Shown piece after piece: positions 7,416-36,533 of a stretch of DNA of 43,316 nucleotides (position 1 is its first letter; every line of letters begins with the position of its first letter). Source of the DNA: a virus. Below the pieces are notes generated by a model. That model did not search any database, had not been told where the DNA came from, and saw only the letters and a list, made by a program, of their open reading frames with translations. The translations under genes and the position numbers were made by a program. The DNA lies in IMG/VR virus record IMGVR_UViG_3300025168_000174, positions 1-43,316 of that record, one strand, 5' to 3'.

Positions 7416-7873
7416 ACGTGCAGATACGAGAGGCTACACTAGCGGACGTAGAGCCATTTGTAGTGCTAGGTAAAATTATGCACGAAGAAACTGCTTTTGC
7501 CGACATTACTTGGGACAATGAACGAGTCATGCGTTTCGGTAAACTAGCGGTCACACATGACGATTTTTGTGTTTTCGTGGCTGAAGCTGATGGGGCATCC
7601 GTAGGCATGGTAATTGCGCAAATAGTGCCATTTTATTTTAGCGCTGAACGACGTTTGTGTGATCATTTGTGGTATGTTGCCGAAGAATACCGTGGTGGCC
7701 CCGTTGCGGCACAGTTAATAGAAAAGTTAATTGAATTTGCTAAACTTAATAAAGTAAAAGAAATATATTCTGGAGTTTCTACTGGTGTGAATACGGACAA
7801 AACTCACGACTTACTAACAAAATTAAACTACCAACACTTAGGTGGTTTATATAAATATAAGGTACAAGGGTAG
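7412..7873 (+). CDS. GNAT-family N-acetyltransferase
   Basis: 153 aa with the GNAT layout: an N-terminal strand-helix (MNVQIREATLADVEPFVVL), central strands (DDFCVFVAEADGASVGMVIA), motif A with the acetyl-CoA pyrophosphate loop (WYVAEEYRGGPVAAQLIEKL, the usual R/Q-x-x-G-x-G/A pattern) and a C-terminal strand (YQHLGGLYKYKV). It should transfer acetyl from acetyl-CoA to an amine; the substrate is unknown. GNAT proteins of this size are common among structural genes of T7-like and marine podoviruses. It overlaps the preceding gene by ATGA and precedes the giant virion gene by 3 bases. Confidence 0.82.
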   Translation: MNVQIREATLADVEPFVVLGKIMHEETAFADITWDNERVMRFGKLAVTHDDFCVFVAEADGASVGMVIAQIVPFYFSAERRLCDHLWYVAEEYRGGPVAAQLIEKLIEFAKLNKVKEIYSGVSTGVNTDKTHDLLTKLNYQHLGGLYKYKVQG

Positions 7874-16800: not shown

Positions 16801-19800
16801 CGATACGAGCGATGTAAGACGTGACTTAGCCGCCGAGTTGGGTATAGAAGAGAACCTAATTCCCGCCGATTTCAATGACTATATAACTAACTTAGCCGCT
16901 GAAGAACTTACCGATGGTGGTGCCGCAGGACGTATAGCAGGTGATATAGCCAACGCAGAAACTGCTTTCGGCTTATACGATGAAACCCCTGCGGAGTTGG
17001 CTGAAGCGTTAGACGGCACTATAGCAGACGTACCTACGTATTTAGAAGACAAGCAGTACACACTAGAAGACGCTAAGGCAGATTTACGTACAGAGCTTGG
17101 GTTGGCCGCCGATGCCGATGTGTCAGCGTATAACACATACCTATTCCGTCTAGTAGACATGACGGGCGCTACACCAGACGCCGATGGTGAGATTAAAGTA
17201 CAAGGTGATATAACCGGTAGCACAGATTTAAGAGATTACCTACAAAATATAAAAGGGTTTGACGTAGGTAGGGGTGAAGGCGAGGTACTACTTAATCCTT
17301 TTACTGAGGGTATGTCAGACGCACTTGGGTTAGGCGTAGATTTAGACACTACGCAAAGTGTTATTGATTACATGGATGCCAATGAGATAACAGGCGATGA
17401 GATACGTAATCAAATTGTTACTGAAACAGGCGTCAATATATACGAAGAAGACGGGACACTCAAGGCTGAGTTTACAGATCAAGCCTTAACAGCGGCTGGG
17501 TTCTTAGTTGATACAAAAGGTAGAGATGGTTACCAAGCCGCAGAGTTAACAGGCAACGTTGCCGATAACACTATAAGCGAGTCTGATATAAGAACTTGGT
17601 TGGGTAACAACGACTACGCCGCACCAGGTGCTGAAGTAGACTTTTTAGGCTATACAGGGTTAGGTACAGACATTGCTGGGCAGGCAGGACAGTATGTAAC
17701 TGACGAAGATTTAGTTACTCAAACACAAACAACGATAAATAACGAACGACAAGCAGTAAGCGACTACTTTGACACAGCCCACAGTTACTTTGATGAAGAT
17801 GCGGCTGTTAACTTTGATATTGATGCGTTACGTAATGCTGACCCTGCAACCATGCAAGCCGCAGTCGATGCGCTTGTAGACGACCAGACGTTGGATTTTG
17901 ATGAGATAGAAGACTACTTCCAAACAGAGCTTGGTTATGGTAGTTGGGTTCCTAGAAGCGTAATAAAAGGCGCGTTGCTTGGGCAACCTGATAATCCTGA
18001 TTTCCCCACACCTCGGCAGTTAACAGCAGGTGAGCTAAACGAGTCAGGTCAATTAGACTCTGTTGCGAATATAGCGCAGTTGCCTGACCAAACAACGCTA
18101 GAAGATTTAGTTAATTATACCACCATATCGCCAGAAGAAGCTCGTGCATACTTAAAGGGCGAGGATCTCTTTGGTGGCCCTCAAATAGATGTACCGTACA
18201 GCGCCGCCGTAGTCGATGCGTTAAGTGACGAAGATTTAGCGACTTTGGGACTCACAGGTAATTACGGTTGGCAAGGTCTAGCATTACCTGAACGAGTCAA
18301 TCCTGTAGATCCTGAAAATATAACGAGCCAAGGTGATTCAACTAATAAAGGCGCGTTTTTAGCCAGTGGGTTTTATAATGACCAAAACCAAGATGAGGAT
18401 GAGGCGCGAGCATACCTAGCAGGTCTAGGGTTAACGCAAGCCACTGAGCTTAACGATCCAGCCGACCCTGACTCTGGCTATAAAGTTGACTTTGCGACCA
18501 TAAACAACTTAGCGGATAACTCACTGGAAGGTCGATTTGATGCGACTGAGCTAGCCCGACGTGCGACACTAGAGGGCGGATACTTTGACCAAAACGAAGT
18601 TACCTTTGATGAGATAAGAGAACAAATTGCTAATGAGTTAGGTGTAGCCCCTGCAACGCTATACGATGAAAATGGCGATCCTATAGCTGGGTACACAGAC
18701 ACTGATATAACCGCCGCTGGGTTTACACAAGGTGTAAATGTTGTAGAAACTGGCCTTGGTACAGAGATTACTGACAACGTACTAACAAGCGGTGACATTG
18801 AGAATCACTTGTCTGGTTTAGGGTACTCCGCAGAACAAATAGCTAATTTTGACTCTAGTGGTATTGCCTGGAACGACACTACTGCGCTAGATGAGCTAAC
18901 GGCTGACTTCCAAACCAACAACAGAAACACAACACAACAAGCAATTGCGGCTGATTTAGAAACTAATTTTGGTTGGTTAAACGCAACTGATGCAGACATA
19001 GCGGCTGTAGCAGACTTAGATGCCGCAGGGCGCACGGCGTGGGTAGGCGACAGAAGGTTTACTTCAACACAAGCCGCTACTGCGTTAGCGAATGTTGGGG
19101 TGCCTACAGATCACCCTGAATATAATAATTTACTTACGGCGTTAACCGTCGATCAAGATAGAACAGGTAGCGTGCCTGCTACACAAGCCGCGCTAGTCGA
19201 TAGCGTTGAAGACCCATTACTTGACCCGTTCTTTATTGATCCTGGCGAAGTAGCCACTGAATTTGGTAACTATACTTACTTTGAAGCCCCCACAGATTTG
19301 TTACCGTTTACAGGTTTAATTGACGATACTGGGCTACCCACCACCATAGAAACTTATGTGAACGAAAACTACGTAACTGCTGATGAGGCACGCGCCGCGT
19401 TAGATGGCGTAGCAGGTGTAGATGCGTACGCTAGAGACGACCAAGATAACTACATAATAACAGACCAACAGCTACTTGACGCAGAATTAACTGGTCAATA
19501 TGTAGACACCGTAGAGAACCAGGCGCTTGCAGATAGGGTCGGGAATCTTACAACAGACGAAACCGAAGCTAGGAATTTACTAATAGCGCAGGGTGTTGTA
19601 AATCCGACCGATGAAGATATACAAAACTACATGGGCTTTACTCCAGAAGCGCCTACATTTACACCAACTGATATAGCTGACCTGCGCTACAGAGGTATAT
19701 TGGATCAGTTTGGCACACCTGCGGTATACAGTGATACGGAAACAGACCTAGACGGTAACCCTGTCTTAGTAACCCCAGCAACTGGTATCTACGCCGAAAT

Positions 19801-20632
19801 CGACTCGTTACGGGGTCAAGGGCTGGATGCTGACGCGATAGGGACTGCTATATCGACCTATATTGGTGGGTTAGGGCTACCTACCAGCGGTGATCTGGAT
19901 ACCTTAGAAGGCGAAATACAAAATTATATTGGCGAGCAAGGGTTCTTTACTGGCGATGCAACTGATATACAACGAATTGTAAGTGACGTAATTGGTAAAC
20001 CTGCTGAGTTAGTTACACAAGAAGATATTGACTATGTAAATAATATAATACAGGGCAACATTGGTGTACAAGATCCTACTTACGACTCAACGAATTTAGG
20101 GTTATATGACGTAAATAGCGATGGATTTATTAATGTAGACGACAAAAACTTACTTGACCAACTTTACGCTGGGCAGGACGCAGAATATAATCAATATGTT
20201 GCAGGTATTGACCCTACCTCACAATTTGCAGATACTGGTATTTTTGATACACTTGCATATGAAAGAGAACAAGATAGACTAGCGGAGATAGCTCGTCAAA
20301 CAGAGATAGACGCGCAGACGCAAACAAACATAAATTTACAGACCCAAATCAATGCACAAAGGTTAGCTACACAAGAAGCGGAACAAAAACAGTTACTTAC
20401 CGCACTTGCGGCCTCACAGCCCCCTCAACAGCAAATGAAACAAGAAGAACCTGAGCTTGCCGAAATGGGGCCAAGGTATGACTTCTCAACAATATTTAGT
20501 ACCCCAGAAGTAGCCGCACAGAAAGCGGCGGTCAGCCCGTATGGTGGATTTAGACAAAAAGCGGCGGCTACAGGTGGGTTGATAACAAATGAAACAGATG
20601 AGTTACTAGCGTTGCTAGAGGAGATTGGATAA
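7877..20632 (+). CDS. Giant 4251-aa repeat-containing virion-associated protein
   Basis: One uninterrupted frame of 12.8 kb. Visible regions: Gly/Ala-rich hydrophobic stretches at about residues 95-230 and 1160-1385; helical or coiled-coil parts at about 390-620; a DFDETFY...HWLATGAANN unit at about 625-660; a Tyr/Trp/Gly-rich beta region at about 1490-2250; then from about 2680 to 4070 many degenerate acidic helical repeats (SPEEARAYLKG, DEDEARAYLAG, TADEARAALDG, GYTPTDAEIRGYM). An EF-hand/dockerin-like loop (DVNSDGFINVDD) begins at residue 4078. A Gln-rich helix follows, with the C-terminal tail SPYGGFRQKAAATGGLI. No enzymatic motif is recognised. Its place before the injection-type proteins suggests a structural or injected protein; a tape-measure role is possible but less likely. 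It is coupled TAATG to the next gene. Confidence 0.75.
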   Translation: MCFIGGWLGEQLDDFKDNVLDDFLGFVPGKGGLVGDLLQDADEFLFHGGLEDFTLDLGRKINEEIFEPAWEYLDAYLYYSGQNMDFSDSLWDMAKLTVAIIYPPALPFVTAAAAKDQGADWDEALLEGAKVAVGQQISQGILDSDIASNVAGGLEASLTAAGISGEFITTFTEATGKIFTSGLAEGSVALLEGDSFSDGFVAGAIFETAQMGTDAVMNFVDERTDGYQFKTDKTQGAKNNIIATDGQPLYNSLPDGSDDLTSIRTDANGLALKAQEVYNTMPAIVQNVLARGVQAKLQGQEVTDFLLAEAAFESLITAEALGELIEPVFAGTGLDVNTDDGRLFMAFLAPAVQRSAAAITTMGFGAESALISQQSFSQVLDQYSSAQLFNFTKDAIQNTSIVQGLLSQLDGLTGKTEAVELAAQNTAVTAAQLSEARAPLVDVLNQHDDKLASQREAREAVISTAEGQLMLRVISEYTDAVIVEDDPNNPDKKIYTIKEGADGDIARAYNTHKEAYEGYRELTPTYVDAAGVTREYAPYAQIAPMINTYKESITEWNAFVAENKNILENSESVLAPYKQAYENAATQLQLDRDALYAETDSLGDYFDAELQTLLQSDYVQVIQPDFDETFYTNLYGPQIDAGMTAQQHWLATGAANNYLVSQSQRDALEQSMINRFKYDTIETVYGEGNLSAFEKSDPTKRAALNTSINNYINANFYDALGDFKFDSITEYKYFDEDGNEIPTFVEGARVERYANQEYVAGLMFVDNEFNSYLQQSSGLSLEEYVNQLNTVPSPVATPLMLDASISSYSGQQVNDYFNDLLLYGGIGLDAVTGQQEYVSSPTAGAQYQFNPFTGERETLLTNGVSFASLADSDPSGFFSTAGDLLGNWFQTWSEATGAAYQSKAEYDQGRRAFINEQMASGAEVGKKWWWSTIDVLSNASANATETAMLNNVPGAELQYKVNVDANGDVVSLFSQQNAPDNRFVYYNTKEDVPREFLPYASLDYKRNAGGQIITDVANIAKVEEKKLDINNYFNDVWDRVRMTDVYTLAGAEGLLSWVQNTFVAGAGYFINMDAQEILDNPVYKWFDVATQVTEAARLTIANQFDPTYATNLEAMNSAFSPINLTQRAVDDPATPYINETVWDTMAIFGDNYQAYPTEFIAEVLFKESVEELGPFAAGVAVKKGVEAFPEISSNVAAALGLGTAFSLEVAESAGGEYVGNFEEAKAVIAQVLRDRRASNQDVTWTSQQIDIMADHYAQGIARETATYAGMLTAAMFFAGGGALDQSAMRRMGIPPDVLSDLGRKLNNDFLIKNGTNAFSNGAAVVSKEILSEYVEEYSIANKFESLIYKWDNTRNIPGNVQFAGQFGALIAGTATTAGILFYPGVWLTDKDGNSYAEEFDIPTFSEATGRLEYKPTGNLAADFLLANVPEIATAVYTGNASSIDSILPTLGITGDVATALADAANDPYYADTIYRLPSPSPGFIDPDFNTFPVGTNNELYYDPTSAGTYKFKDGNWARTGNGNQTVADWKSYNEYGTIVDVTMPTFEQVKRSIQLTLNDREMLEGRFTTIDGLSVQGFNFPDHPSFPGNSHGYTLPDAVKNSFHPADFIPENWESLTYDQLLPYYTGFRNIQELVFVPSPLAVTQYSAIDPSDGLLYIYNGEPYIPPGQTEPGFMVPGWDGVAGARSSDESIPDQFFEGIENQLITDPNTGDQYLVSVTFEEGQNAMESTTRLTKWITDAPSAYEVWDKFTTDDQGSWVIDGGVGYQSDFGSGGKRLRYLPPVTIAGGSALNTRNGEGMFGGWEAIYGPDAPSDRDMEYRRTNWIEDRYGNVNNIPELLQDGKGQTLGGMETMINNAAGYVMMATSEADFEQRMEDYSTVYEAYWPYIARERAKYGLKNQDTVNEAFYGGSIPLRIKTINPYDVTGVEEVAGSELYYSDGYGYNLYHRAGRFTQLPTSEYVNNLLYPDGLLADGEGNFTPKVTDFPVAPTNTAPEKWWDQENHHRYYAAYDSGISHNGNSTDAEGLFIPVSEEMAVGSWSAELTGTLQIESGRFTAGSVPWQWLVNPAFHTEPEHGEVTTFSYIRNNSLGVDHSGYGGLGYKGIWIHPFEKDARGDGLQYVYKNGQWRAAWYWHPAVDDDGQWIPYDEEGGTRKGLKVNTGVSNLASSDSYGLPIWTSGTNDAGGQIPNFNKPYRSDRDHVWGHTEYDEATAGDYPGENATSPGLGATTEEFLTNIGFTGSYDDFTPAARARLQTPYSSSDQLALPPGMIDPIAQQEEYEQAQFDYFISKSVENGWSVPDANYYVFKNGRDILNVMDGMQSTDDFDAYFVNNADQAQTFNGIDPSPTLTLSSYKRLFTDTYGLSEEEFYAMHRSPSLGMTNEAVDDTLNNYVFNQVEDPNKLDAFGNPIIGMRGNSDFVQNFVANNINTREDIIAKYKTELGQSYEPTEAEINQYLGYRYKLDDNGDHDLHASGNKKQYKLLNNIDLNYFTDVEREDAVERRLTTLEKDTVRSNFFELNDPIKRAQFKDRLIDLYQHDSLISEAENQRAFDILVNDTINNEYNQNLRRRNAASQLRTQLFIKDARGDEEYKKYPNINVSTYDEDQETWIEANFGAALDAYYDADPTKYTVPITDIKTLIENYEATEKAKLTAVLPGRSTLVDELFRVNGTVADAQKLADIVTNFEAKWGYTPSEKDLYILGANAGLSVSGIKNTNNTFGLFNSFATGGRQVNNYFAAQNAFRTIKEEFEKYGYTPDDAEIRGYMNAVNTNLGGVTTIPVLDQNVIAQIEAYVAPKILDAGEVKGLLENAGITAAEFEARFGYDPISRYTDTRIDSFDAGFSPLENDISTFVADRDLQTQRDYNAAEYNRIAAEFSKYGIDIYATEKANDLAGAFFEQDLADVEQVVIDNYPTGTHVDFLKRSRLVEYFEMTGEAIPSEQDLQTMIDQMTGTTKAELTDTNQISTIATTYLAAQTYDTSDVRRDLAAELGIEENLIPADFNDYITNLAAEELTDGGAAGRIAGDIANAETAFGLYDETPAELAEALDGTIADVPTYLEDKQYTLEDAKADLRTELGLAADADVSAYNTYLFRLVDMTGATPDADGEIKVQGDITGSTDLRDYLQNIKGFDVGRGEGEVLLNPFTEGMSDALGLGVDLDTTQSVIDYMDANEITGDEIRNQIVTETGVNIYEEDGTLKAEFTDQALTAAGFLVDTKGRDGYQAAELTGNVADNTISESDIRTWLGNNDYAAPGAEVDFLGYTGLGTDIAGQAGQYVTDEDLVTQTQTTINNERQAVSDYFDTAHSYFDEDAAVNFDIDALRNADPATMQAAVDALVDDQTLDFDEIEDYFQTELGYGSWVPRSVIKGALLGQPDNPDFPTPRQLTAGELNESGQLDSVANIAQLPDQTTLEDLVNYTTISPEEARAYLKGEDLFGGPQIDVPYSAAVVDALSDEDLATLGLTGNYGWQGLALPERVNPVDPENITSQGDSTNKGAFLASGFYNDQNQDEDEARAYLAGLGLTQATELNDPADPDSGYKVDFATINNLADNSLEGRFDATELARRATLEGGYFDQNEVTFDEIREQIANELGVAPATLYDENGDPIAGYTDTDITAAGFTQGVNVVETGLGTEITDNVLTSGDIENHLSGLGYSAEQIANFDSSGIAWNDTTALDELTADFQTNNRNTTQQAIAADLETNFGWLNATDADIAAVADLDAAGRTAWVGDRRFTSTQAATALANVGVPTDHPEYNNLLTALTVDQDRTGSVPATQAALVDSVEDPLLDPFFIDPGEVATEFGNYTYFEAPTDLLPFTGLIDDTGLPTTIETYVNENYVTADEARAALDGVAGVDAYARDDQDNYIITDQQLLDAELTGQYVDTVENQALADRVGNLTTDETEARNLLIAQGVVNPTDEDIQNYMGFTPEAPTFTPTDIADLRYRGILDQFGTPAVYSDTETDLDGNPVLVTPATGIYAEIDSLRGQGLDADAIGTAISTYIGGLGLPTSGDLDTLEGEIQNYIGEQGFFTGDATDIQRIVSDVIGKPAELVTQEDIDYVNNIIQGNIGVQDPTYDSTNLGLYDVNSDGFINVDDKNLLDQLYAGQDAEYNQYVAGIDPTSQFADTGIFDTLAYEREQDRLAEIARQTEIDAQTQTNINLQTQINAQRLATQEAEQKQLLTALAASQPPQQQMKQEEPELAEMGPRYDFSTIFSTPEVAAQKAAVSPYGGFRQKAAATGGLITNETDELLALLEEIG

Positions 20633-24937: not shown

Positions 24938-27900
24938 ATGGCTACGTTACAAGAGATAGCACAGGCAATAGAATCCCACAAACGTGCAGGGAATGTGGAA
25001 GACGCCGCTGTATTGCAAGACGTTTTAAATAGGGAAATGCGCGTCCCTCAAATGCAACCCGTAAACGCAAGACCTGACTACGGCGCAGTTGGTAATTTAA
25101 CTCGTGGTATTGGTAGAGGTATTGTAGGCACTGCCGAAACTACCGCGCTGGGGTTGGCGTCTTTACTTGACGAAGAATCTGAAAATAATGCGCGTGCGAG
25201 AATACAAGCCGCCGCTGAGAAGGCGCGTCCAGATATAGATCCCACTTCTAAGTTAGGTAAGTTTGGTGAAGGGTTAGGTTCGTTTGCCTCATTTGCTGTA
25301 CCAGGTGGCGCCGCCGCGAAAGGTGCTCAATTACTTGGTAAGGGTGCAAAAGCACAGCAAGCCGCCGCATTAGGCACTGCCGGTACATTAGGTGTAGGTG
25401 CAGGGGCAGGTGAAGCAAGAGAAAGGGCCAGAGCACAAGACGCCACTCCTGGTGAACGTGCTATATCAACATTAGGTGGCGCACTCGTTGGCGTTACTGA
25501 AGTTCTCCCACTCGGTAAGATATTCCCCAAACAGTTTGAACTACCCATTATGAAGAGCTTAAACTCTAAGATGGGGCCGCAGGGGGTCAATAGCTTTAAA
25601 GACAGAGTATACCGCGCAGGTATAGCTGGTGGTTATGAAGGTGCGCAAGAAGCGACCGCCGCTATCTTACAAAACTTAATTGAGAAAGGTGTATACAATC
25701 CTAAACGTGAGCTACTTGATCTTGGTGTTGCTGAAGAAGCATTAATTGGTGGTGAGGTTGGCGCGTTTGTACAGTTCTTTACTGACTTGTTCTACAGAAG
25801 AGTACCTAAGAAAGCTAAAGTTGGGGATGCAAAAACTGACACTGCCGAAACTGTTGACGTACAGGGAGCACAAACACAGGCAACAGTAACACCGCCAACT
25901 GAGCCAGGTACTGAAGCTGAAGAGGCTGTTGTAACACCGCCAACCGAAGAAACAAAAGAAGAAACGCCCGAAGAAACGCCCGAAGAAAAACCGGTTGACC
26001 CTAAAAAAGTAAACGAAGCTATTGCCGGGTTTGATGAGACTACTTTAGCCGAACGATCACAACAAGCAATAAACCAAGCAACAACAGAGGCAGATAAAGG
26101 AACGTACGATAAAGCCGTTGCGTTTGTTAAAGGCAAAGAAACAGTAACAAAAGACGCTATCCAAAACGAACTTAAAACAGATGCAAGTGAAGTAGACCTC
26201 ATTGTTTCTCGAATGCGTAAAGAAAATATACTTGATAAACGCGCAAAGAACGGCAATATTGTAGTTCGTGCATCCGTACCTAAAACAAATGTCACTCCAG
26301 CGCCTGAGCAGGTAGGCGGGCCAATGGAGTCGTACGTACCTTCCTTTGAAGATCCTTTTTTCTATGGTCAAGCATTATCTTTTGTAAGAGAAGAAAATAA
26401 ACCTAGTATATCTGCAATCCAACGCAGGTTTAAAATTGGTTTTAAGCAAGCGTCTGAAATTATGGAGCGCCTGGAAAAAGACGGTATTGTATCTCCTATG
26501 TCAATGGAAGGTAAACGCACAGTTTTAAAGACAACAGACCTTGAACCAGTAGTAGAAAAAACAACTGTTGCGCCAGAATCTGAAAAAGCCGCCGCGTGGG
26601 TGGCGGATGCAAAGAAAAAATTTCAAACAGTTATACAGGGGTTAGAAAAACCACAAACAACTAAAGCTGGTAAGCCCGTAAAAGGCTCGTTCGGTAGCAC
26701 CCTGGGGGATGACGCACAGATAGAAGCGTACCAAGATGATTTAAACAAATTAGAAAGAATGGAACAGCAGTTAAACGAAGGTCAGCCTTGGAAAGTTGTG
26801 CAAAAAAACCTAAGACCTAAACAAATAGGTTCAGGTAAAATAGATTTAAACATACCACTTATACCTACGGATATTAGGGACGAGTCATTAGCGCCTAATG
26901 CAGAGGGCAAGAAAGGCACTAACTACGGAAAATTTCCGTTTGAAAAACAGGAGACTACCGATGAAACTGGAACCGGACAGCGTGCTAAATCTGGACAAGG
27001 ACGACGTAGAGTTAGCGCTAAAGACAATAAACGAGTGGACAGAAAACGAAAGAAAAGCACCGCCACCAAAGCTAAAGCATCTACAGTGGACGCAGTGGAA
27101 GCAACTGGTGGTGCTACTGCACGCACTGATGGAGGAAAAGGAGCAGGCGTCTCTACACTAACAAAAGAAGTAACTCCAGATGATGTAGAGGGTGGGCCTA
27201 ACGATCCAAATTTTTACTCTAACAAAGAAACTGGCCTCATTGACCCTATCAGCAAGCCAGCTATGCAAAGCGCAGGGAAGAACGAAATAAGCGGCGTGCT
27301 CAATGAAATTATAAATACAACTAAAAACCCTGTTATAAAAACTATAGCCCAAAAGCTATCGGTGTACTCTGATGGAGTTAATATACGCGTTGCCAATGAC
27401 AAGGATCCAGACGCACAGAAAGTTGTAGAGAAGTTAACTAAACAATACGGTAAGTTTGACGGCGGTGTGTTCTTACCTGCCTCAGACTCTAGTCGTCAGC
27501 TTGGTATGGAAAACACTATCATAGTAATACCTAAGTCAGACGGCACTGTAAACACACAAACTGTGCTACATGAAATGACACATGCGGCAACTCACAAAAT
27601 TCTAGCAAACAAATCACACCCAGTTACTAGACAACTAATGACTTTGTTTGAGACAGTCAAAGACTATTCCCCTAGCATATTCGGCGCAACTGATGTTGAC
27701 GAGTTTGTTGCAGAAGCATTTAGTAATGTAAATTACAAAAACTTTTTAGCTAATGTGCAAATAAAAACACAGGGCAACAAGTACATAAACGCACTTGAAT
27801 CGTTCTTTAATTCAATTGCTAACATCCTTAGAACCATGGCAGGTAAAACACCTAAACCTATAATTCGAGTAGACGCACGAAGTGATCTACTGGGTATGAA

Positions 27901-30900
27901 CTTAGCAAACAAAACAGATGCGTTAATTAGTCAAATACTAGCGCCGCCTGGTACGAGTGACGCCGCACCACTGTTCTCGTTTACTAGACCCGAAACCAAA
28001 GTACCGGCCTTAAACAAGTTGTTTGGTGCAATCGGCGATGCCATGAAACCCATAACGAAAAAAGAGTCTAACCAAGTTGTCGATAAGTTTATGAGTTTTA
28101 TTACCAACGGCAAATACAAAGTGGGAGATTTGTTTGATCTTATACGTAACGGCGCGGCGCCTATGCACTTTATGGTAGAGCTATCACAAAATGAAAAGTT
28201 TGCCTACGTCGATGGCGATGGCAAAAAACAATATCGCCTACGAGATGCAGTTGAAAGGTTGCGGTTAGCGTTTGAAACTCAACGCGGTAAAGTCGGTAAG
28301 TTAATAGAAAGCACCGAAGCCATGAACCTAAAGCTACAAGAATACACAAACAAAATGGGGGACACGGACTTAGAAAAAATAGATCAGCTTATGTCTCGTG
28401 AAAGTCAGACTAACGTTAATGTAGACATGGCAGATACTTACTACGACCCTGATGAGCGTGTAGATCCAGACGACGAAAGTTCAGAACTTAAAAGAGATAT
28501 ACACAAAAAATTAAAGCGTGACTACGCTAAGATGTCTAAGGTACAAAAAGACTACCGCAAAGAAATATTGGGTAACTACAACGTGCTAATAAACAGATTA
28601 CGAGCGCACGTTGAGACTGCGATAAAAGAATCAATAGATATAGACACAGGCGAAGTTACCGTAGACGCTAAGACAAGAAGTAAACTCGCCAAGTTAGTAG
28701 ATGAAAAACTATTTCCGTCAGGTATTATAGATCCGTACGTACCTTTCTTTAGAGAGGGCGATTACCGTTTAATGTACCAAGTAAAAGACCAATACGTTGA
28801 TCCTATATTTGGTAATACTTATGTAGAATTCTTTAAAACAAGATATGACATGGAGCAGGCCATACTTGAATTACAGAACAGCGATAAAGTTAAACGTGTG
28901 GTAGATAAAGACGGTAAAGAAACAGCTGAGATAGCTGGGTTTGAATCAACTAAAGATGATGGGACATTTTCTTTTACTAAAAGTAAGAATATATCTTCCG
29001 GATTTATAGGTGATTTAATAACAAATCTTACTAAAGCTAAAGTGCCAAAAGAACAACAAGACGAAATTATTATGGCGTACATAGAGTTAATGCCAGGCTC
29101 TGCGTTTGCTAAGATGCTACAGAAACGAAAAGGCACGCCAGGTTTTCTAGGGCAAGAAACGCCGCTAGGCACACGCGAAAACTTTGCTTATGTTGCTGGC
29201 AGAAAAATACCAGAGTTCGGTAAACGAATTATACAATTAGAGATGGCAACTGAGTTTAACACAATAGGCTCTGAACTTGACACAGTGCGGAAACAATACA
29301 AAAAATTTACCACTGACGCTAGGATGCAAGATGCTGTAGATAATATGGTTGAGGATTTAGTCTTACGCATGGAGTTTGGCAAAAATGCTAGGCGTGGCGG
29401 ACTTTCTAATTTTTTGCGTAGGACAGCGTTCTTTTACACCATTGGTTTTAACGTATCATCGTCAATAATTAACCTGTCACATTTACCTCTCATTGTATAC
29501 CCATGGTTAGCCGGTAAATACGGCTACGGTAAGACAGGTAAAGCCATAACTGACGCTGGCAAATTAATGAACGCTGGTAAAACTACCGATAAGAAACGTA
29601 AGAAGCAAACATTAGCAGGGACTGAAGTAGATATAGATGCACCGAAAATGTTTGGTGTTGAGTATGATTTTGTAGAGGGTATAGATACATACTTTATAGG
29701 AGAGATAGATAAGAAGACTGGCGAGACAACGTACGTGTTACGTAAAGATTTAAAATTCCCTAACAAAGAAACTGAAACCATGGTTAAAGCCATGCAACCA
29801 CTTGTCCAAGAGATGAAAGACAGAGATTTGTTTACAAGTTCTTACTTGTCAGCAGAGTTAGACGTTAACGAAATGGGTAGAAAGAAAACATTACTCGATG
29901 AGTTGACGGGCACAAGTGCGTATTGGTTTAACTATATGGATACTCGCACCAGGCAGACCACAGCCATTGCTAACTTTTTATTAGAGACTGGAATAAATGA
30001 ACCGGGCGCTAAAAAGCTAACTGCAAAAGAGTTAAAAGAGGCCGCCGAAAACGCTGTATACACGACACAAAAACTAAATGGTGGTACAACCGCAGAGACT
30101 GGCGCACGGTTTGCGCAAGGTGACTTCCTTAGTGTAGCTCTGATGTATAAAAACTACGGGCTTACTGTGTACGGTAACTTATTTGAAGCCGCTAAACGTT
30201 ATTATGATTTTCGTTTTGGTAGTAAGGTAGATCAGAACACAGGTAAGAAAGAATCAGATATAGCGTTTAAACAGTTAGTTGGTATTCACGGTGCGGCTTT
30301 GGTAGTAGCGGGCGCACAGGCAATGCCCTTGTACGCTGTGTATCGTATTGTAGCTAACCTTTTCCTTGGTGATGATGAAGAAGACGCTGATGTATTAGCG
30401 CGTAGATTTTTAACTGAGTTTGGGTATAAAGGGCCGATAGTTGCACTGACAGGTATAGATTACGCGTCGCGTGCCTCGTTGTCAGAATTATTATTTCAGT
30501 TCAATCGGTTTAATCCAGACGCTAATTTAGAAGAACAGTTGTGGTTCTATTTAGCTGGCCCGGCAGGGGGTGTGGCTAAAACATTTGATCGCGCCATAGG
30601 TGATTTTAAAAACGGTAACGTTGAACGTGGAGTAGAAGGCTTTATGCCAACAGCGGTACGTAACTTGTATCGCGGCACCGTGCGCTACCCCAGAGAGGGC
30701 GCACTTACTCGTCGGGGTGACCCGGTATATACTGACTGGAGTGTAGGGGACTTGGCGTTTCAAACATTTGGCTTTGCCCCGTCAGAATACACCAGAGCTA
30801 ACGAACAAAAAATGTCGTTGAAGAACATAGACAACGCAATATCCAGGGAGCGCACTAATCTACTAAGAAACTACTACGTGGCCGTACGAGTAGGAGACTG

Positions 30901-31132
30901 GGAGAAGTCGCAGGGTATAATGAAAGATATAGTTAAGTTTAACAGCCGTCACGGTTTAGGTAAGGCGGGTATCACCGCAGATACAATAGAGAAATCTATG
31001 ATGCAACATGCAAAAACATCAACCGAAATGTGGAACGGTGTGTTAATTAGCTCTATGAACCGAGATGCGTTACGGATGAAGCGTGATGAATGGGACGATG
31101 GAATATCATTGTTGCCAGATAACTTACTATAA
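24938..31132 (+). CDS. Giant polyvalent-type virion protein: FtsK gamma-like winged helix plus zincin metallopeptidase
   Basis: 2064 aa. In order: a Gly/Ala-rich membrane-active region (about 45-290); a Thr/Glu/Pro linker (about 305-355); a winged helix (about 386-445); a second winged helix (472-530, SISAIQRRFKIGFKQASEIM) very like the FtsK gamma domain; a basic linker (about 676-716, GRRRVSAKDNKRVDRKRKK); a zincin-like domain with H878-EMT-H882 and a downstream candidate ligand E922/E926 (DVDEFVAEAFSN); and a long helical C-terminal half with hydrophobic stretches near 1497-1525 and 1782-1810. The C-terminus (FLTEFGYKGPIVALTG, RTNLLRNYYVAV) resembles large polyvalent-protein-associated domains of phage internal proteins. 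It is probably packaged and injected, acting on host DNA or proteins. The final gene of the rightward arm. Confidence 0.75.
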   Translation: MATLQEIAQAIESHKRAGNVEDAAVLQDVLNREMRVPQMQPVNARPDYGAVGNLTRGIGRGIVGTAETTALGLASLLDEESENNARARIQAAAEKARPDIDPTSKLGKFGEGLGSFASFAVPGGAAAKGAQLLGKGAKAQQAAALGTAGTLGVGAGAGEARERARAQDATPGERAISTLGGALVGVTEVLPLGKIFPKQFELPIMKSLNSKMGPQGVNSFKDRVYRAGIAGGYEGAQEATAAILQNLIEKGVYNPKRELLDLGVAEEALIGGEVGAFVQFFTDLFYRRVPKKAKVGDAKTDTAETVDVQGAQTQATVTPPTEPGTEAEEAVVTPPTEETKEETPEETPEEKPVDPKKVNEAIAGFDETTLAERSQQAINQATTEADKGTYDKAVAFVKGKETVTKDAIQNELKTDASEVDLIVSRMRKENILDKRAKNGNIVVRASVPKTNVTPAPEQVGGPMESYVPSFEDPFFYGQALSFVREENKPSISAIQRRFKIGFKQASEIMERLEKDGIVSPMSMEGKRTVLKTTDLEPVVEKTTVAPESEKAAAWVADAKKKFQTVIQGLEKPQTTKAGKPVKGSFGSTLGDDAQIEAYQDDLNKLERMEQQLNEGQPWKVVQKNLRPKQIGSGKIDLNIPLIPTDIRDESLAPNAEGKKGTNYGKFPFEKQETTDETGTGQRAKSGQGRRRVSAKDNKRVDRKRKKSTATKAKASTVDAVEATGGATARTDGGKGAGVSTLTKEVTPDDVEGGPNDPNFYSNKETGLIDPISKPAMQSAGKNEISGVLNEIINTTKNPVIKTIAQKLSVYSDGVNIRVANDKDPDAQKVVEKLTKQYGKFDGGVFLPASDSSRQLGMENTIIVIPKSDGTVNTQTVLHEMTHAATHKILANKSHPVTRQLMTLFETVKDYSPSIFGATDVDEFVAEAFSNVNYKNFLANVQIKTQGNKYINALESFFNSIANILRTMAGKTPKPIIRVDARSDLLGMNLANKTDALISQILAPPGTSDAAPLFSFTRPETKVPALNKLFGAIGDAMKPITKKESNQVVDKFMSFITNGKYKVGDLFDLIRNGAAPMHFMVELSQNEKFAYVDGDGKKQYRLRDAVERLRLAFETQRGKVGKLIESTEAMNLKLQEYTNKMGDTDLEKIDQLMSRESQTNVNVDMADTYYDPDERVDPDDESSELKRDIHKKLKRDYAKMSKVQKDYRKEILGNYNVLINRLRAHVETAIKESIDIDTGEVTVDAKTRSKLAKLVDEKLFPSGIIDPYVPFFREGDYRLMYQVKDQYVDPIFGNTYVEFFKTRYDMEQAILELQNSDKVKRVVDKDGKETAEIAGFESTKDDGTFSFTKSKNISSGFIGDLITNLTKAKVPKEQQDEIIMAYIELMPGSAFAKMLQKRKGTPGFLGQETPLGTRENFAYVAGRKIPEFGKRIIQLEMATEFNTIGSELDTVRKQYKKFTTDARMQDAVDNMVEDLVLRMEFGKNARRGGLSNFLRRTAFFYTIGFNVSSSIINLSHLPLIVYPWLAGKYGYGKTGKAITDAGKLMNAGKTTDKKRKKQTLAGTEVDIDAPKMFGVEYDFVEGIDTYFIGEIDKKTGETTYVLRKDLKFPNKETETMVKAMQPLVQEMKDRDLFTSSYLSAELDVNEMGRKKTLLDELTGTSAYWFNYMDTRTRQTTAIANFLLETGINEPGAKKLTAKELKEAAENAVYTTQKLNGGTTAETGARFAQGDFLSVALMYKNYGLTVYGNLFEAAKRYYDFRFGSKVDQNTGKKESDIAFKQLVGIHGAALVVAGAQAMPLYAVYRIVANLFLGDDEEDADVLARRFLTEFGYKGPIVALTGIDYASRASLSELLFQFNRFNPDANLEEQLWFYLAGPAGGVAKTFDRAIGDFKNGNVERGVEGFMPTAVRNLYRGTVRYPREGALTRRGDPVYTDWSVGDLAFQTFGFAPSEYTRANEQKMSLKNIDNAISRERTNLLRNYYVAVRVGDWEKSQGIMKDIVKFNSRHGLGKAGITADTIEKSMMQHAKTSTEMWNGVLISSMNRDALRMKRDEWDDGISLLPDNLL
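26961..27161 (+). CDS. Nested (overprinted) 66-aa gene inside the 2064-aa gene
   Basis: In the +1 frame relative to the host gene. The ATG at 26961 is preceded by a perfect AGGAG at 26949-26953 with 7 bases of spacing. The product (MKLEPDSVLNLDKDDVELAL, then INEWTENERKAPPPKLKHLQ and QWKQLVVLLHALMEEKEQA) looks like a normal folded, mostly helical small phage protein with three tryptophans. The host frame here is a low-complexity basic linker, as expected when the nested frame is the constrained one. An upstream ATG at 26898 lacks a ribosome site. I recall similar small proteins ending in LLxEKE from marine phages but could not search. Function unknown. Confidence 0.55.
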   Translation: MKLEPDSVLNLDKDDVELALKTINEWTENERKAPPPKLKHLQWTQWKQLVVLLHALMEEKEQASLH

Positions 31133-31177
31133 AAACCCCTTACTACCGACTGAATGAGGGGGGTCAATAGTAAGGGG
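31133..31177 (-). terminator. Intrinsic terminator of the leftward operon, at the convergence point
   Basis: The inverted repeat CCCCTTACTA (31136-31145) / TAGTAAGGGG (31168-31177) forms a perfect 10-bp stem with a 22-base loop. Read on the minus strand the stem is followed directly by TTTTT (31131-31135). It lies between the ends of two converging transcription units, about 60 bases past the 75-aa gene. On the + strand there is no T-run after the stem, so termination there would be weaker. Confidence 0.7.
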
Positions 31178-31239
31178 CTGGAGCTTGGAGAGTTATGGCA
31201 GGGGAAATTCGATAAAACCTTACCACAGCACAAACTATA

Positions 31240-31467
31240 TCACATAGTTCGCCAAACGCGAACCCCTAAAATATCATTTTCTATCACTATTTTAGTTGTA
31301 ATTTGTTGTAACCTATCGTTGGTTATTGTGGTTATTTGTCGTACAGCCGCAGTAGTATTTATACATGGTATAAACATAGACGATCCTACGGCAAATTTAT
31401 TCCAATCAATGACGATTCTTACCCCATCGGGAGCAATGTCATACGTCCTCAACGCTCCCATCGCCAT
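31240..31467 (-). CDS. Small conserved-looking phage protein, last gene of the leftward operon
   Basis: Up to 75 aa; alternative ATG at 31461. The core reads like a compact beta-alpha-beta protein: VRIVIDWNKFAVGSSMFIPC, then TAAVRQITTITNDRLQQIT and a final strand IENDILGVRVWRTM. I recognise this general pattern (strand, 'VG.S.F.PC', helix, 'G.R.WR') from small phage proteins near primase genes, function unknown. Its start lies inside the 3' end of the primase-helicase gene (29-base overlap). No strong ribosome site is visible, so translation may depend on coupling. A + strand frame over the same bases looks like its shadow. Confidence 0.55.
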   Translation of the reverse strand: MAMGALRTYDIAPDGVRIVIDWNKFAVGSSMFIPCINTTAAVRQITTITNDRLQQITTKIVIENDILGVRVWRTM

Positions 31468-34267
31468 GTAAAACCTCGTCGGGTTTATCTACTTTACAAT
31501 CTACGATAATACAGGGTTGCGACCCGTGATCCAGTTTAGTACCTCGATACAGCCTTACCCTGTGTTTCTTTGCGCTCATATTTTCTTGTAGATCAGTCAC
31601 CATTTGAGCGTAGTTTATCTGCTGTTTAGCGCACCAGAGCCTAAGTGTTTTTGGTACGATATACGCACGTCCAATGTCATGCTCATACCGGTAGGCAAGT
31701 ACATCTCGTTTGGGCATCATGTCAGGTATAACTAAATTATTAAGGCCGCCATCGTCCCCTTTCCGTAAGTCTTGTGTGCTGTTTATCCATATCGCGCTGG
31801 CAAAATGCTCATTAAAGAATTCGTTTAGTAATTGTTCTACGGGAGTGTCCATTTCAACCATAGCTTCTTTGTTCTGTATAAGTAACTTAACAGTCCAAAT
31901 TTCTAGGTTTTTTAGGTCGTAGGTAATAAACCCTAGCTTTTTAGCTATGATAAGCCCTGCCAGACTTGTAACTACCCCAGCAGACCAAAATCTATTTTCG
32001 GCTGACAGCCCCGCTTTTGTGTCTATACGTGTTTGTATTTTATCTAAAGCTATTTTTATTTCTGCTAAGTTGTTAATTACGAACTGTATGTAGGGTATAC
32101 CTACGTGCGCACAGTGCTCCTCAACAGACCTAGCGAAGTCGTCGGTTACTTTCTTACTGGCAAAGTGCATCTTCTTTGCGGGACATTCTAATATCCTCTG
32201 TGCCTCTGCTTTCGGCGCATTCTTAGTAACACCCACAGATTCAACAATGCTTGTATTGCCAGACAGTACAGAGCTAAATGCGAAAGGTCTGCCCCTGGTG
32301 CGTTCTTGGTTTGACCCGCTGGACATACGTGCCCGCTGTTGCCCAGACGATAGCTGATACAACAAGTCAGATAGCTCATCACCCTTGGCGTTTGTAACCT
32401 CATCTACAAGAAACGGTAAACTATGGTATATCTCAGCGCGGTTCATCTTACTGGCGTGCGTATCTTTTCTATCCAACATAAGCTCTCTAGGAGTGCCCCA
32501 CACAGACGCGGCGGCTAACATAGCTGTGGTTTTACCTAACCCAGAGTCTTTACTAAATATATGTATGGCCGCACACTGTACTGGCATGAGTTCCATCAAA
32601 GCCGAGCCAAACGCGGTGCCCATTACATACTGGTGCATTTCCATGCCTGGTTGGTTATAAAACTCTGCCATTTCTTTCCAGCCTTCTAACGTGCCTCTTG
32701 GCTCAAACGCCGAAAACAACGCGGCAGTGGGGGCAGAGGGCGGGTTAAACTTCAACTCATCTGCCGTGACTTCTGTGTTACCCAGTACAAACGACGTACA
32801 GTTCTCGTCTGTCCACCCAAACTCTCGGTGCGCTGTATCTGCGGTAGAGTTTGCTTGTAGCTCGTTTACCCAATCAGTTGTATATCGCATAAGTTCATCC
32901 ATTTTGCTGACGGCCACGCCTTCTTTTGACATAGCCTTTCTAAATTCTTCTCTTGAAGTTACTGCTGTCAGTGGCACCGTAAATTCACGTACCCCATCTC
33001 TGGGTAGATGCAACCGCATAACAATAGCTTCCCCAACTTCTATATCTTTCAAACGCCGCATAACATACAAGTCATTGTGATATATGGCTTTCTCATCAAC
33101 AATGCCTTCTGCGTCCTGCGTACGTATATACACCCCACCGTTCCTACCACGAAAGTACGGCTCTGGGTAAGTGGGTATTGTGTATTCTTTCACCGGCGCA
33201 TTAGGTAAATCTATAGCCGTTTCTTGTACTACTACCTCACCACTTTCGGCGACTCGGCTACCTAATACAATTGGTGACTTAACCTTGCCCCAGTTAGGGC
33301 AGTCCATACACACACCTTCTACACGGTCGTCAAACGTAGAGCAGGTATGTGGGTACTTTATATTGTCGTATTTAGTGTCTGTCTCGTCAGGGTCATACTC
33401 TTCGTAACCACGAGACAATTCGTGCGCTGTTTCTCTGCCAGCATCACTGCAATGTTTTGCTATAGACATAGCAGATACCCATACAGGTTCGCTTTGTGTA
33501 TTGGGTTCGTCGATTACTCTACGTAGCTGTTCACACCCACTACCGTCACGAGACTTAGCTATAATGTCATCGAAACTACTCTCTCGATTACTAATCAATG
33601 CGTCCATAACAGCGTTAGTACCACTGGTAACTGTGGGGACTGGTATCGTTTCATACCCAAGCAATTCAGCGAACTCACCAACATCAACAGGCTTAGCCTT
33701 AGCGTACATAAACTCTACGGGTATAGGCGGGTCTGTCTTGTGGTTGTGTGTATTCGGTATACGTAACACCCTGGCGGAGTCTGACGTTACTGCGTGGTCA
33801 GCTAACAAACCTTTTTCTTTTGTCAGCGATTTCAGTCGGTTAGCTACTACTTCCCAACGTTCACGTTCCACACTCTCAGCCAATGGCCAGTGTACATGTA
33901 CCCCCCTACCAGAATCGACAATCAATGGTTTAGGTAGCTGTAAATCCTTACAGAAACTACGTAGCCCATGCAATGCCTCGGCTTGCGACGCATACTTCTT
34001 ATCGTCGTCTGGATCGACGTCAAGATCAAAGTAAAACGCCTTAACATTTTGTACGGCTTTTTGTGTGCGTGACCCTTTCTCTGCGAACGTACCCATAGCA
34101 ACATAAGCATCCCAGCCCCCCGCGTCATACTCATACGCGGCCTCAATGAGATCATCTATGGAATCGTAAAAAGTTTGTCTGCGCCCCTCACTACCGTTAA
34201 GTAACGCCAGAAGGCAGTAGTAACTACCCTCGGCGAGCACCTCCGATAAAAACTCTCTTGTGTTCAT
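31439..34267 (-). CDS. Primase-helicase fusion (AEP prim-pol plus DUF927-like AAA+ helicase)
   Basis: 942 aa. The N-terminal archaeo-eukaryotic-type primase domain shows the DxD motif (FYFDLDVD, D81/D83) and the paired-histidine strand (SGRGVHVHWPL, H124/H126), followed by ARVLRIPNTHN. A middle region carries conserved cysteines (GCEQLRRVI, SIAKHCSD, HTCSTF, CMDCPNWGK), probably a zinc site. The C-terminal ATPase has a Walker A (SGLGKTT, K579) and Walker B (FLVDEVT, D622/E623) and resembles DUF927/SF3-like helicases. It should prime and unwind DNA at the phage fork. The ATG is preceded by GGGGGGAG. A terminator separates it from the SSB-like gene upstream, so its expression may be set independently. 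Confidence 0.85.
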   Translation of the reverse strand: MNTREFLSEVLAEGSYYCLLALLNGSEGRRQTFYDSIDDLIEAAYEYDAGGWDAYVAMGTFAEKGSRTQKAVQNVKAFYFDLDVDPDDDKKYASQAEALHGLRSFCKDLQLPKPLIVDSGRGVHVHWPLAESVERERWEVVANRLKSLTKEKGLLADHAVTSDSARVLRIPNTHNHKTDPPIPVEFMYAKAKPVDVGEFAELLGYETIPVPTVTSGTNAVMDALISNRESSFDDIIAKSRDGSGCEQLRRVIDEPNTQSEPVWVSAMSIAKHCSDAGRETAHELSRGYEEYDPDETDTKYDNIKYPHTCSTFDDRVEGVCMDCPNWGKVKSPIVLGSRVAESGEVVVQETAIDLPNAPVKEYTIPTYPEPYFRGRNGGVYIRTQDAEGIVDEKAIYHNDLYVMRRLKDIEVGEAIVMRLHLPRDGVREFTVPLTAVTSREEFRKAMSKEGVAVSKMDELMRYTTDWVNELQANSTADTAHREFGWTDENCTSFVLGNTEVTADELKFNPPSAPTAALFSAFEPRGTLEGWKEMAEFYNQPGMEMHQYVMGTAFGSALMELMPVQCAAIHIFSKDSGLGKTTAMLAAASVWGTPRELMLDRKDTHASKMNRAEIYHSLPFLVDEVTNAKGDELSDLLYQLSSGQQRARMSSGSNQERTRGRPFAFSSVLSGNTSIVESVGVTKNAPKAEAQRILECPAKKMHFASKKVTDDFARSVEEHCAHVGIPYIQFVINNLAEIKIALDKIQTRIDTKAGLSAENRFWSAGVVTSLAGLIIAKKLGFITYDLKNLEIWTVKLLIQNKEAMVEMDTPVEQLLNEFFNEHFASAIWINSTQDLRKGDDGGLNNLVIPDMMPKRDVLAYRYEHDIGRAYIVPKTLRLWCAKQQINYAQMVTDLQENMSAKKHRVRLYRGTKLDHGSQPCIIVDCKVDKPDEVLHGDGSVEDV

Positions 34268-34284
34268 TAAGCTCCCCCCAATCC

Positions 34285-34315
34285 AAAAAATACCGTGAGG
34301 CTATTAACCCCACGG
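34285..34315 (-). terminator. Internal intrinsic terminator between the SSB-like and primase genes
   Basis: On the minus strand CCGTGGGG (34315-34308) pairs with CCTCACGG (34300-34293), 8 bp with one G-T pair and a 7-base loop. It is followed by TATTTTTT (34292-34285). It lies in the 59-base gap after the SSB-like stop and just before the primase ribosome site. This looks like a partial terminator setting the ratio of abundant SSB to primase. Confidence 0.75.
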
Positions 34316-34326
34316 CCAAGCTAGAG

Positions 34327-35013
34327 CTACTCGTCGTCCCAATCATCAACGATAGAACTAAGCTCTTGTTTGTCTTTTGGTTTGGGTGTTGCTTTTTTCT
34401 TCACAACTTTTTTGGGTGCGGGTTCAGGTGCAGGCTCTTCTTCAAAGATGTCGTCGCCATCATCTGATATGTTAGAATCAAACGGACTAGCATCTTCTGA
34501 AGTAAACCCATCAACAGCGCCAAATGGTGAGCCACTGTCTTTAGGTTCTGCGTATTTAGTAACCTGTACAGCAGACAACCGTAGTGATACACCGTGGTCA
34601 CGCATGTTGTAAGGTACAAACACAATCGCTATGTTAGCTGTGCTACCTGTGGTTAGTTTAAAATCATCGGGTAGTTTGTTGTTTTTGGCGTCAAACTGAC
34701 GTGGTTTCTGCGTAACGTCTTTGCCATACGCACCTTTCAGTTTAGCTTTACCAATAAACATACCGTCGTCGTCTTTCTTAAACGGCATCTCTAGCTTCTC
34801 AGGCCATTTGTCCTCGCGCTTTTCTTTGTACGCGGCACTCATGGCTTTGAACAAAGCCTTAGCCTGGTCTGTGTCCATACGAAATGACATCTCATATGCG
34901 GCGCCATCATCAAGAGGGTCACATGGGATAGAGCGGTTCTCTGTGTTGTCAAACCGATAAGTCTGGTTGATACGTGGGTACATTACTTCTACATCATTTA
35001 TTACGTGTTTCAT
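34327..35013 (-). CDS. SSB-like single-strand DNA-binding protein with acidic tail (DUF2815-like)
   Basis: 228 aa from ATG 35013, chosen because AGGAGA (35026-35021) sits 7 bases upstream; the longer frame overlaps the neighbour and lacks a site. The protein has beta-rich OB-fold-like content (YEMSFRMDTDQAKALFKAM, FIGKAKLKGAYGKDVTQKP, GSTANIAIVFVPYNMRDHGV, LRLSAVQVTKY). A disordered C-terminal half follows with a Lys/Pro stretch and a very acidic end, VDDWDDE, the hallmark of phage and bacterial SSB tails that recruit partner proteins. It should coat single-stranded DNA during replication and recombination. It is flanked by replication genes and followed by a terminator. Confidence 0.75.
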   Translation of the reverse strand: MKHVINDVEVMYPRINQTYRFDNTENRSIPCDPLDDGAAYEMSFRMDTDQAKALFKAMSAAYKEKREDKWPEKLEMPFKKDDDGMFIGKAKLKGAYGKDVTQKPRQFDAKNNKLPDDFKLTTGSTANIAIVFVPYNMRDHGVSLRLSAVQVTKYAEPKDSGSPFGAVDGFTSEDASPFDSNISDDGDDIFEEEPAPEPAPKKVVKKKATPKPKDKQELSSIVDDWDDE

Positions 35014-35035
35014 TGCGCATTCTCCTAAGAATGGA

Positions 35036-35659
35036 TTATTTGTAAGCGTAACCCTCGACGGAATCGAAGGGTGACGGGTTCGCGCTCTGTTTTTCAACAG
35101 AGGTTATTGCGGCACGAGTATCTGGATGGTCGATAAGGTCAGCCACCACAGCCACTTCATGTTCTTCCAACGTACGTATTGGTTTAAACAATACTTTCGG
35201 CACGCTACTGTTGTTATCGAAATAAGCCTTGGTCAGTATTGTCGTAGCTGAAGTGTTGTTGCTGTGTAGATGTCTTGCGTATTCTTGCAAGGGCATACCA
35301 CCACCAACTGTTTTACCAAAAATAGAAGTCGCTGGCAACTGCAACTGATAAACTTCTTCTAAATTATCCTCCACTACTACTGCCAACCGTTGTAAAAACC
35401 GGCAGGCTCTACCGTACCCAGACGTACCACGGACGTTTTGTTTACAATCCATACAACGTCTAGCTTGCACCTGCTCTCCAGGTACTGCGGGGTCGGGTGT
35501 CTGTGTGTTACTTGACCAACATGTTGGTGCCACTGTTTTATCGACATCAAACTCGTCAGCAAAATACGCACGCGATACCTTGGCCGCGTTCACTATAACA
35601 AGGTTTACACTATCACCGTGGTAAGAAAACGTACCCCCACGTATGCTAATTCGGCGCAC
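35036..35659 (-). CDS. Conserved Cys-rich phage replication-module protein
   Basis: 207 aa, GTG start at 35659 directly after the previous stop, with GAGGA 7 bases upstream. The middle part has a zinc-finger-like set (TCWSSN, then RRCMDCKQNVRGTSGYGRAC), followed by a strand-rich region (FLQRLAVVVEDNLEEVYQL) and LPATSIFGKTVGGGMPLQEY. The C-terminus ends in FDSVEGYAYK. I recognise the 'C..C..N..G......RACRF..RLAV' pattern from phage genes adjacent to SSB, but no function is known to me. Placement next to the SSB suggests a DNA-bound accessory factor. Confidence 0.65.
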   Translation of the reverse strand: MRRISIRGGTFSYHGDSVNLVIVNAAKVSRAYFADEFDVDKTVAPTCWSSNTQTPDPAVPGEQVQARRCMDCKQNVRGTSGYGRACRFLQRLAVVVEDNLEEVYQLQLPATSIFGKTVGGGMPLQEYARHLHSNNTSATTILTKAYFDNNSSVPKVLFKPIRTLEEHEVAVVADLIDHPDTRAAITSVEKQSANPSPFDSVEGYAYK

Positions 35660-35893
35660 CTAAATATCCTCATCAAGATCAAACACATCTACCTTGGGAT
35701 CATTACCTAACTCATTGTTAGCAAACAATCCTTCCTTGACTCGCTCCAAATCAAACCTGTATTCATTACCAGTCTTGATATAAGAGTTTGGTGGTATGGT
35801 ATTGCGCTTTATCCAACGACGTACCGTTTGTACTTCTACATTAAAATACTGTGCGACCTCTTCTGACGTCACAAAGGGACTTTCATTCGTCAT
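35660..35893 (-). CDS. MerR/excisionase-like helix-turn-helix protein
   Basis: 77 aa from ATG 35893 (GGAG with 6-base spacing); an upstream ATG at 35905 is also possible. The N-terminal winged HTH is clear (VTSEEVAQYFNVEVQTVRRW, then IKRNTIPPNSYIKTGNEYRF), the helix-turn-helix type of excisionases and MerR-like regulators. An acidic tail (KVDVFDLDEDI) ends the protein. It overlaps the AlpA-like gene by 11 bases. It should bind DNA, either at an operator of this operon or as an accessory replication/recombination factor. Confidence 0.75.
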   Translation of the reverse strand: MTNESPFVTSEEVAQYFNVEVQTVRRWIKRNTIPPNSYIKTGNEYRFDLERVKEGLFANNELGNDPKVDVFDLDEDI

Positions 35894-36089
35894 TTTGTTC
35901 TCCATTTACAAGTTTACTTTCGTTTATCTTATTACTTATCCACTCCTCAACATCACGACTGTCCCAACCCGTGGCACGAGCTGTGAGCTGAATATTCTTG
36001 GGAAATTCGTTTAAACGAACTTGTTTATATATAGACGAAGGGGAAAGCCCCGTTAAGTCTGCCACTTCTTTAATACGTAAAATTTTCAT
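35883..36089 (-). CDS. AlpA-like transcriptional regulator
   Basis: 68 aa matching the AlpA/CP4-57 regulator family from end to end: ILRIKEVADLTGLSPSSIYK (helix-turn-helix), then the short wing FPKNIQLTARATGWDSRDVE and the helix EEWISNKI. AlpA-type proteins regulate excision or middle genes in phages and satellites. Its start shares an ATGA overlap with the preceding gene, and its 3' end is overlapped by a second HTH gene, so a two-regulator cassette sits inside the replication operon. Confidence 0.82.
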   Translation of the reverse strand: MKILRIKEVADLTGLSPSSIYKQVRLNEFPKNIQLTARATGWDSRDVEEWISNKINESKLVNGEQNDE

Positions 36090-36481
36090 TACTTACTCCT
36101 CACAGTTATTACAAATTCAGAATCCGCATTTAATCCTGGTGGGACTACATCTGGATTCTCCTCTAAAAACTCTTTGACGTGCTTCTGGTTGAGTCTTTTC
36201 TCAAAGAACTCAGGTATCTCATGCTCCATGATAAACTTGTGCATGGATCCCCAATCACTTGTCCAGTAGCGGGTTTTCACCGTGCGATAGAACAAACCGT
36301 CGGGCGTGCGTACACTCTCGACACCATTGTCCTCACAGTGTTTTAGTAGGGCTTGTTTGATAGTGTCTTGCTGTTCCTTTAAGTCACCATCTTCTTCTTT
36401 GAATTTTGCAGATAAATCCGCACGTTTTGTACGTATTTTGCGATAGACACGCAAGAGCTTACCTAAGTCAGTATCTGACAT
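36089..36481 (-). CDS. Conserved phage protein with N-terminal coiled coil, unknown function
   Basis: 130 aa. A charged helical N-terminus (LLRVYRKIRTKRADLSAKFK, then EQQDTIKQALLKHCEDNGVE) leads into a small alpha/beta domain (SVRTPDGLFYRTVKTRYWTS, DWGSMHKFIMEHEIPEFFEK) and an ending PPGLNADSEFVITVRSK. I recognise this helix plus 'S.rT..G..yR....' arrangement from phage replication clusters, without a known function. GAGGGGG lies just ahead of the ATG. It is separated from the SNF2 gene by 52 bases that carry a dyad. Confidence 0.65.
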   Translation of the reverse strand: MSDTDLGKLLRVYRKIRTKRADLSAKFKEEDGDLKEQQDTIKQALLKHCEDNGVESVRTPDGLFYRTVKTRYWTSDWGSMHKFIMEHEIPEFFEKRLNQKHVKEFLEENPDVVPPGLNADSEFVITVRSK

Positions 36482-36513
36482 ATTTCCCCCTCATTCTAGT
36501 TGTTTGTAGTACA

Positions 36514-36529
36514 GTGTAGCTATCTACAC
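36514..36529 (-). promoter_or_regulatory. Inverted repeat between the SNF2 gene and the next gene
   Basis: GTGTAG-CTAT-CTACAC (written on the + strand) is a perfect 6-bp dyad with a 4-base loop. With one bulged base it extends to about 9 bp per arm. It lies just past the SNF2 stop, 33 bases before the next start. It may be an operator for the AlpA/MerR-like regulators encoded downstream, or an mRNA hairpin. There is no U-tract, so it is not a standard terminator. Confidence 0.4.
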
Positions 36530-36533
36530 GTGT

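Follow-up and report, generated by a model that had tools for sequence, protein, structure and literature searches.

The open reading frame (ORF) at positions 26961-27161 of the window, which is the whole 43,316-base virus record IMGVR_UViG_3300025168_000174 analysed without a host genome, most probably represents a real overprinted gene of ancient origin, independently translated from within the gene of a giant polyvalent protein. The probability of this reading is estimated at about 0.93, a figure from which the function of the product is excluded. Gene status, a conserved start, purifying selection and a constant location are all shown by comparative sequence data from uncultured phages, and translation in the infected cell is inferred, no expression data being available. 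An overprinted gene overlooked at this site had already been proposed in the original prediction, and this proposal is now supported by the existence of homologues, by strong purifying selection on the inner frame and by relaxed selection on the outer one. According to the mechanism considered here, the gene would have been overprinted in the +1 frame on a disordered linker of the giant (ejection-type) protein, and ribosomes would start it independently, at its own Shine-Dalgarno (SD) site on the mRNA of the giant gene. The features involved are the following:

24938-31132, + strand: outer gene, encoding a 2064-aa large polyvalent/ejection-type protein (domain matches; LPD38/LPD39 in relatives)
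26360-26530, + strand: FtsK gamma domain, of winged-helix DNA-binding type, at residues 475-531 of the outer protein and 5' of the nested gene (Pfam PF09397, E=3e-19)
26949-26953, + strand: Shine-Dalgarno site of the nested gene, AGGAG, 7 nt 5' of its ATG (sequence; SD matches in the family)
26960-27160, + strand: low-complexity linker segment encoded by the outer frame across the nested gene (composition)
26961-27161, + strand: nested (overprinted) gene for a predicted 66-aa acidic helical microprotein, stop codon included (ORF; profile built without this record; family frame)
27569-27583, + strand: HEMTH, the HExxH motif in a zincin-like peptidase domain of the outer protein located 3' of the nested gene (motif)
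30107-31105, + strand: C-terminal conserved region common to DarB-like/PLxRFG proteins (similarity matches)

The nested ORF extends from an ATG at 26961 to a stop codon at 27159-27161, lies entirely within the 2064-aa gene in frame +1 relative to it, and encodes 66 residues with three Trp and no Cys. These coordinates and letters, including the AGGAG 7 bases before the ATG, were confirmed as first described. The stop-to-stop run in this frame comprises 89 codons and is the longest in either alternative plus-strand frame of the outer gene, the next longest being 47 codons. Late expression together with the virion genes, which had also been proposed, is inferred from position only.

A run of this kind could nevertheless be a chance open frame in a low-complexity linker, and the statistics that can be obtained from a single genome are weak. 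When the synonymous codons of the outer gene were redrawn, the +1 frame remained open across these 66 codons with a probability of 0.08-0.11, and a run of at least 89 codons appeared anywhere in the outer gene with a probability of 0.14. The six structural genes would contain any nested ATG ORF of at least 60 aa preceded by a 5-base SD with a probability of 0.02, rising to 0.09 for a 4-base SD. An open +1 frame is not rare here because a linker made of Gly, Lys, Arg and Thr has few codons with T in the second position. Thus, the composition of the linker, which had been taken as a sign that the inner frame carries the constraint, is not by itself evidence for an inner gene, since composition alone holds the +1 frame open. 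The record considered by itself is suggestive of a nested gene, not conclusive, and since much of the openness of the frame is accounted for by the composition of the outer protein, the decision falls to the comparative data alone.

Direct tblastn and peptide scans of IMG/VR with the 66-aa protein returned nothing, and scans with single sequences of the outer protein returned only one near-identical contig. This contig (L002), the sole near-identical relative found, is 99.67% identical to positions 29090-37292 across 8203 bases (27 mismatches) and does not cover the nested gene. Relatives were reached when the stabilization-type protein and the outer C-terminus were used in profile alignments, which led to two sets of uncultured phage contigs, and in those contigs tblastn and profile searches located inner homologues, all within homologues of the giant gene. 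The family was then enlarged by two position-blind peptide scans of IMG/VR and a profile search of whole records, a 10-member alignment being too divergent for scanning. The protein search suggested originally was thus successful, though by this route and not by direct search, and yielded 125 distinct copies of the inner protein, all of them (125/125) reading in frame +1 relative to an enclosing ORF that has 300 aa or more and, when complete, about 2000 aa. The stand-alone gene that had been expected in related phages did not appear, as no copy among the 125 was standalone or relocated.

A profile built without this record ranked its nested ORF first among 598 ORFs (E=1.2e-10), and the assignment of this copy to the family rests on this match together with its frame, SD and position. 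The inner proteins have a median length of 57 aa, and nearly all of them end in Gln or His. A very divergent member (L060:20371-20592; 73 aa, GGAGG, nested in +1) is found only weakly by the profile, and the true family is therefore probably larger than counted. The inner protein gave only chance-level matches in Pfam and PHROGs, none in PDB sequences and none among the cultured phages searched, and a scan of genome contigs was also negative. In the literature on nested phage genes and on this phage group, limited to open-licence papers, no description of the gene was found.

The start region is conserved as well. Among the 124 copies having a start (ATG in 97, GTG in 21, TTG in 6), 119 show an SD match of at least 4 nt, and in the main subfamily the start positions align. 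These observations bear on the possibility that ribosomes translating the giant gene enter the inner frame by programmed +1 frameshifting, which would yield a shortened giant protein with a different tail. The inner frame is indeed often open for some codons upstream of the start, as this would require, but in six copies a stop codon lies 0-1 codon upstream, so that initiation must be internal. Together with the conserved SD and the aligned start, these copies make a frameshift product very improbable.

Selection on the two frames was estimated in 23 independent pairs of relatives, mostly from the main subfamily. None of them belongs to the branch of this record, whose copy has no close relatives, so that the selection figures do not cover it. 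The inner frame showed a pN/pS of 0.12 with 91% residue identity, and the outer frame over the same bases a pN/pS of 3.7 with 70% identity. Constraint in both frames had been put forward as a check; in the relatives, it is purifying in the inner frame and relaxed in the outer one. Simulations in which only the outer frame was under selection gave an inner pN/pS of 0.98-3.3, with inner stops expected in about 13 of the 23 pairs; the observed inner frame is open in all copies. In pairs 90-99.9% identical, outer wobble substitutions amounted to 0.014 per site in the overlap versus 0.33 in the upstream flanking outer codons and 0.27 in the other flank, a 23-fold drop within the overlap. A drop of this kind could, taken alone, mark an overlapping RNA or DNA signal instead of a protein. 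However, the substitutions follow the codon structure of the inner frame with three-base periodicity, position 3 being the fastest (0.158) and position 2 the slowest (0.014), and protein similarity persists where family members share only 25-40% residue identity; a nucleic acid signal is consequently given next to no weight. A chance frame, which the composition of the linker had left plausible, is contradicted by the profile match obtained without this record, the constant frame, the low inner pN/pS and the conserved SD, and is considered extremely improbable.

The outer protein is assigned to the large polyvalent class on the basis of its sequence matches, although firm LPD matches are found only in relatives (1e-16 for LPD38; 1e-12 and 1e-6 for LPD39), that of LPD39 in this record (E=0.05) being below the cut-off. 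For polyvalent proteins, delivery alongside the DNA of phages or plasmids has been predicted (PMC5512222). The FtsK gamma domain, of the KOPS-binding type, is here part of a polyvalent protein encoded in the structural block, and related domains occur in several phage families. The region around the HEMTH motif weakly resembles, by tblastn, domains of virion RNA polymerases of the N4-like type. The overlapped outer segment consists of 65% Gly, Ala, Pro, Ser, Thr, Gln and Asn, has few hydrophobic residues, and is likely to form a disordered linker. Its original description as a basic low-complexity linker applies to this copy, rich in Gly, Lys, Arg and Thr, but does not extend to the relatives, in which the segment is rich in Gly, Ala, Pro, Ser and Thr and contains 7% Lys/Arg versus 13% overall.

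The nested gene is not present in all relatives. It is absent, with no remnant detected, from the two contigs nearest to this record by outer protein (L091 and L092), absent from L099/L100 though the outer gene is kept, and absent from the whole genomes of HTVC023P, HTVC027P, DSL-LC04 and CRP-902 searched with the profile. Related phages that kept the outer frame while breaking the inner one would have spoken against the gene; all copies found are open, and the relatives mentioned lack the gene altogether. Hence, the gene is dispensable in some lineages and not universally required. Its presence and absence on a tree of the outer C-terminus needs three changes, compatible with a single old gain followed by two losses; the tree was quickly built, has no inferred root and contains several long branches. 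The origin of the nested gene would be ancient, with one event or only a handful of them, and the gene would have been passed on at the same site ever since, the outer protein meanwhile diverging to about 20% identity.

The product is predicted, from sequence and structure models, to be a soluble acidic helical microprotein. Net charge in the family ranges from -8 to -1, and the maximum 19-residue Kyte-Doolittle mean from -0.18 to 0.84, without any segment of membrane-helix grade. AF2 modelled three helices in a typical member (pLDDT 84) and two helices in the copy of this record (residues 13-25 and 43-63; pLDDT 72), in line with the helices claimed for it at the outset. Fold searches of BFVD with the model of this record and of PDB with that of the typical member gave nothing above chance. 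Where the function of a small nested phage gene is known, it is often lysis, so that a lysis protein of the phiX174 E or levivirus Sgl type, or an outer-membrane spanin of the Rz1 type, had to be considered. The former is not compatible with the hydropathy of the family, nor the latter with the lack of a lipobox cysteine in this record's copy, and a role in lysis is regarded as improbable. Thus, a chance ORF, a frameshift product, an RNA signal and a lysis protein were all rejected or put low on comparative and hydropathy evidence.

Regarding function, two readings of a real nested gene are about as likely as each other. In the first one, the product acts independently of the giant protein, in host takeover, in counter-defence or as a minor virion protein, and its location merely reflects vertical inheritance. 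Many accessory roles in phages could be filled by a short, soluble, acidic and helical protein, the gene is present or absent without a strict link to the outer domains, and some lineages have lost it while retaining the outer gene; the absence of any relocated or standalone copy is, on the other hand, unusual for a freely acting accessory gene. This reading is a serious possibility, held at somewhat less than even odds. In the second one, which is the favoured function, a small partner is made together with the giant protein and serves as its chaperone, or holds it in an inactive state, up to its packaging in the virion. This role has not been demonstrated and is inferred from constant co-location, acidic charge and size, and it remains tentative. 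There is no tight link with the peptidase, since HExxH is missing within 700 residues downstream in 6 of 87 outer proteins bearing the inner gene, and outer proteins lacking the inner gene keep the motif. The loss of the gene in some lineages also speaks against a strict partnership. An inhibitor specific to the zincin domain was also considered, and inner presence did not strictly track HExxH. A more specific proposal, doubtful for now, is that the obligately nested microprotein might serve, encoded in cis, as chaperone or antidote to a giant multi-effector protein packaged in the virion. If true, one mRNA would encode both the effector and its keeper, and the lack of any copy outside the host gene would then be explained.

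Some other characteristics of the record deserve mention. A 4251-aa gene (7877-20632) occupies almost a third of it, with no Pfam match and no relative in the viral-contig peptide scan. A GNAT-type acetyltransferase gene (7412-7873) lies among the structural genes, and the structural block of Roseobacter phage CRP-902 also has one. A minus-strand gene located amid replication genes (36089-36481) has a match to a PHROG that carries the label minor head protein.

The searched family libraries and the cultured-phage collection thus lack a protein family that is conserved among widespread aquatic phages, apparently because its gene sits inside a giant gene. Systematic +1-frame searches within phage giant genes would be worthwhile, and the family provides a defined entry into the question of what happens to giant ejected polyvalent proteins prior to packaging. 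The case is among the clearer examples of overprinting in tailed dsDNA phages, with a strongly selected inner frame and a drifting linker in the giant protein.

The arrangement resembles those of phiX174 E in D and lambda Rz1 in Rz, in which a small gene with its own start is likewise wholly contained within another one in the +1 frame, the frame in which most internal overlaps of viruses are found (PMC8227390). It differs from them in that the nested gene would encode a new protein family without membrane or lipoprotein features, and in that its host gene encodes a giant polyvalent protein, an arrangement common to a broad range of uncultured tailed phages from aquatic sources. Among cultured phages, the HTVC023P-type pelagiphages, DSL-LC04 and CRP-901/902 carry a stabilization-type protein related to that of this record (33-38% identity). 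The latter (2857-5382) has 841 aa compared with about 620-710 aa in relatives, with an apparent insertion between conserved N- and C-terminal parts. The outer protein itself is similar to the large polyvalent proteins described by Iyer et al. (2017; PMC5512222) in its multidomain organization, its FtsK-type DNA-binding domain, its zincin-like HExxH motif and, in relatives, its LPD38/LPD39 domains. In comparison with that description, in which a text search does not return the word "overlapping", the nested partner gene would be the addition made here.
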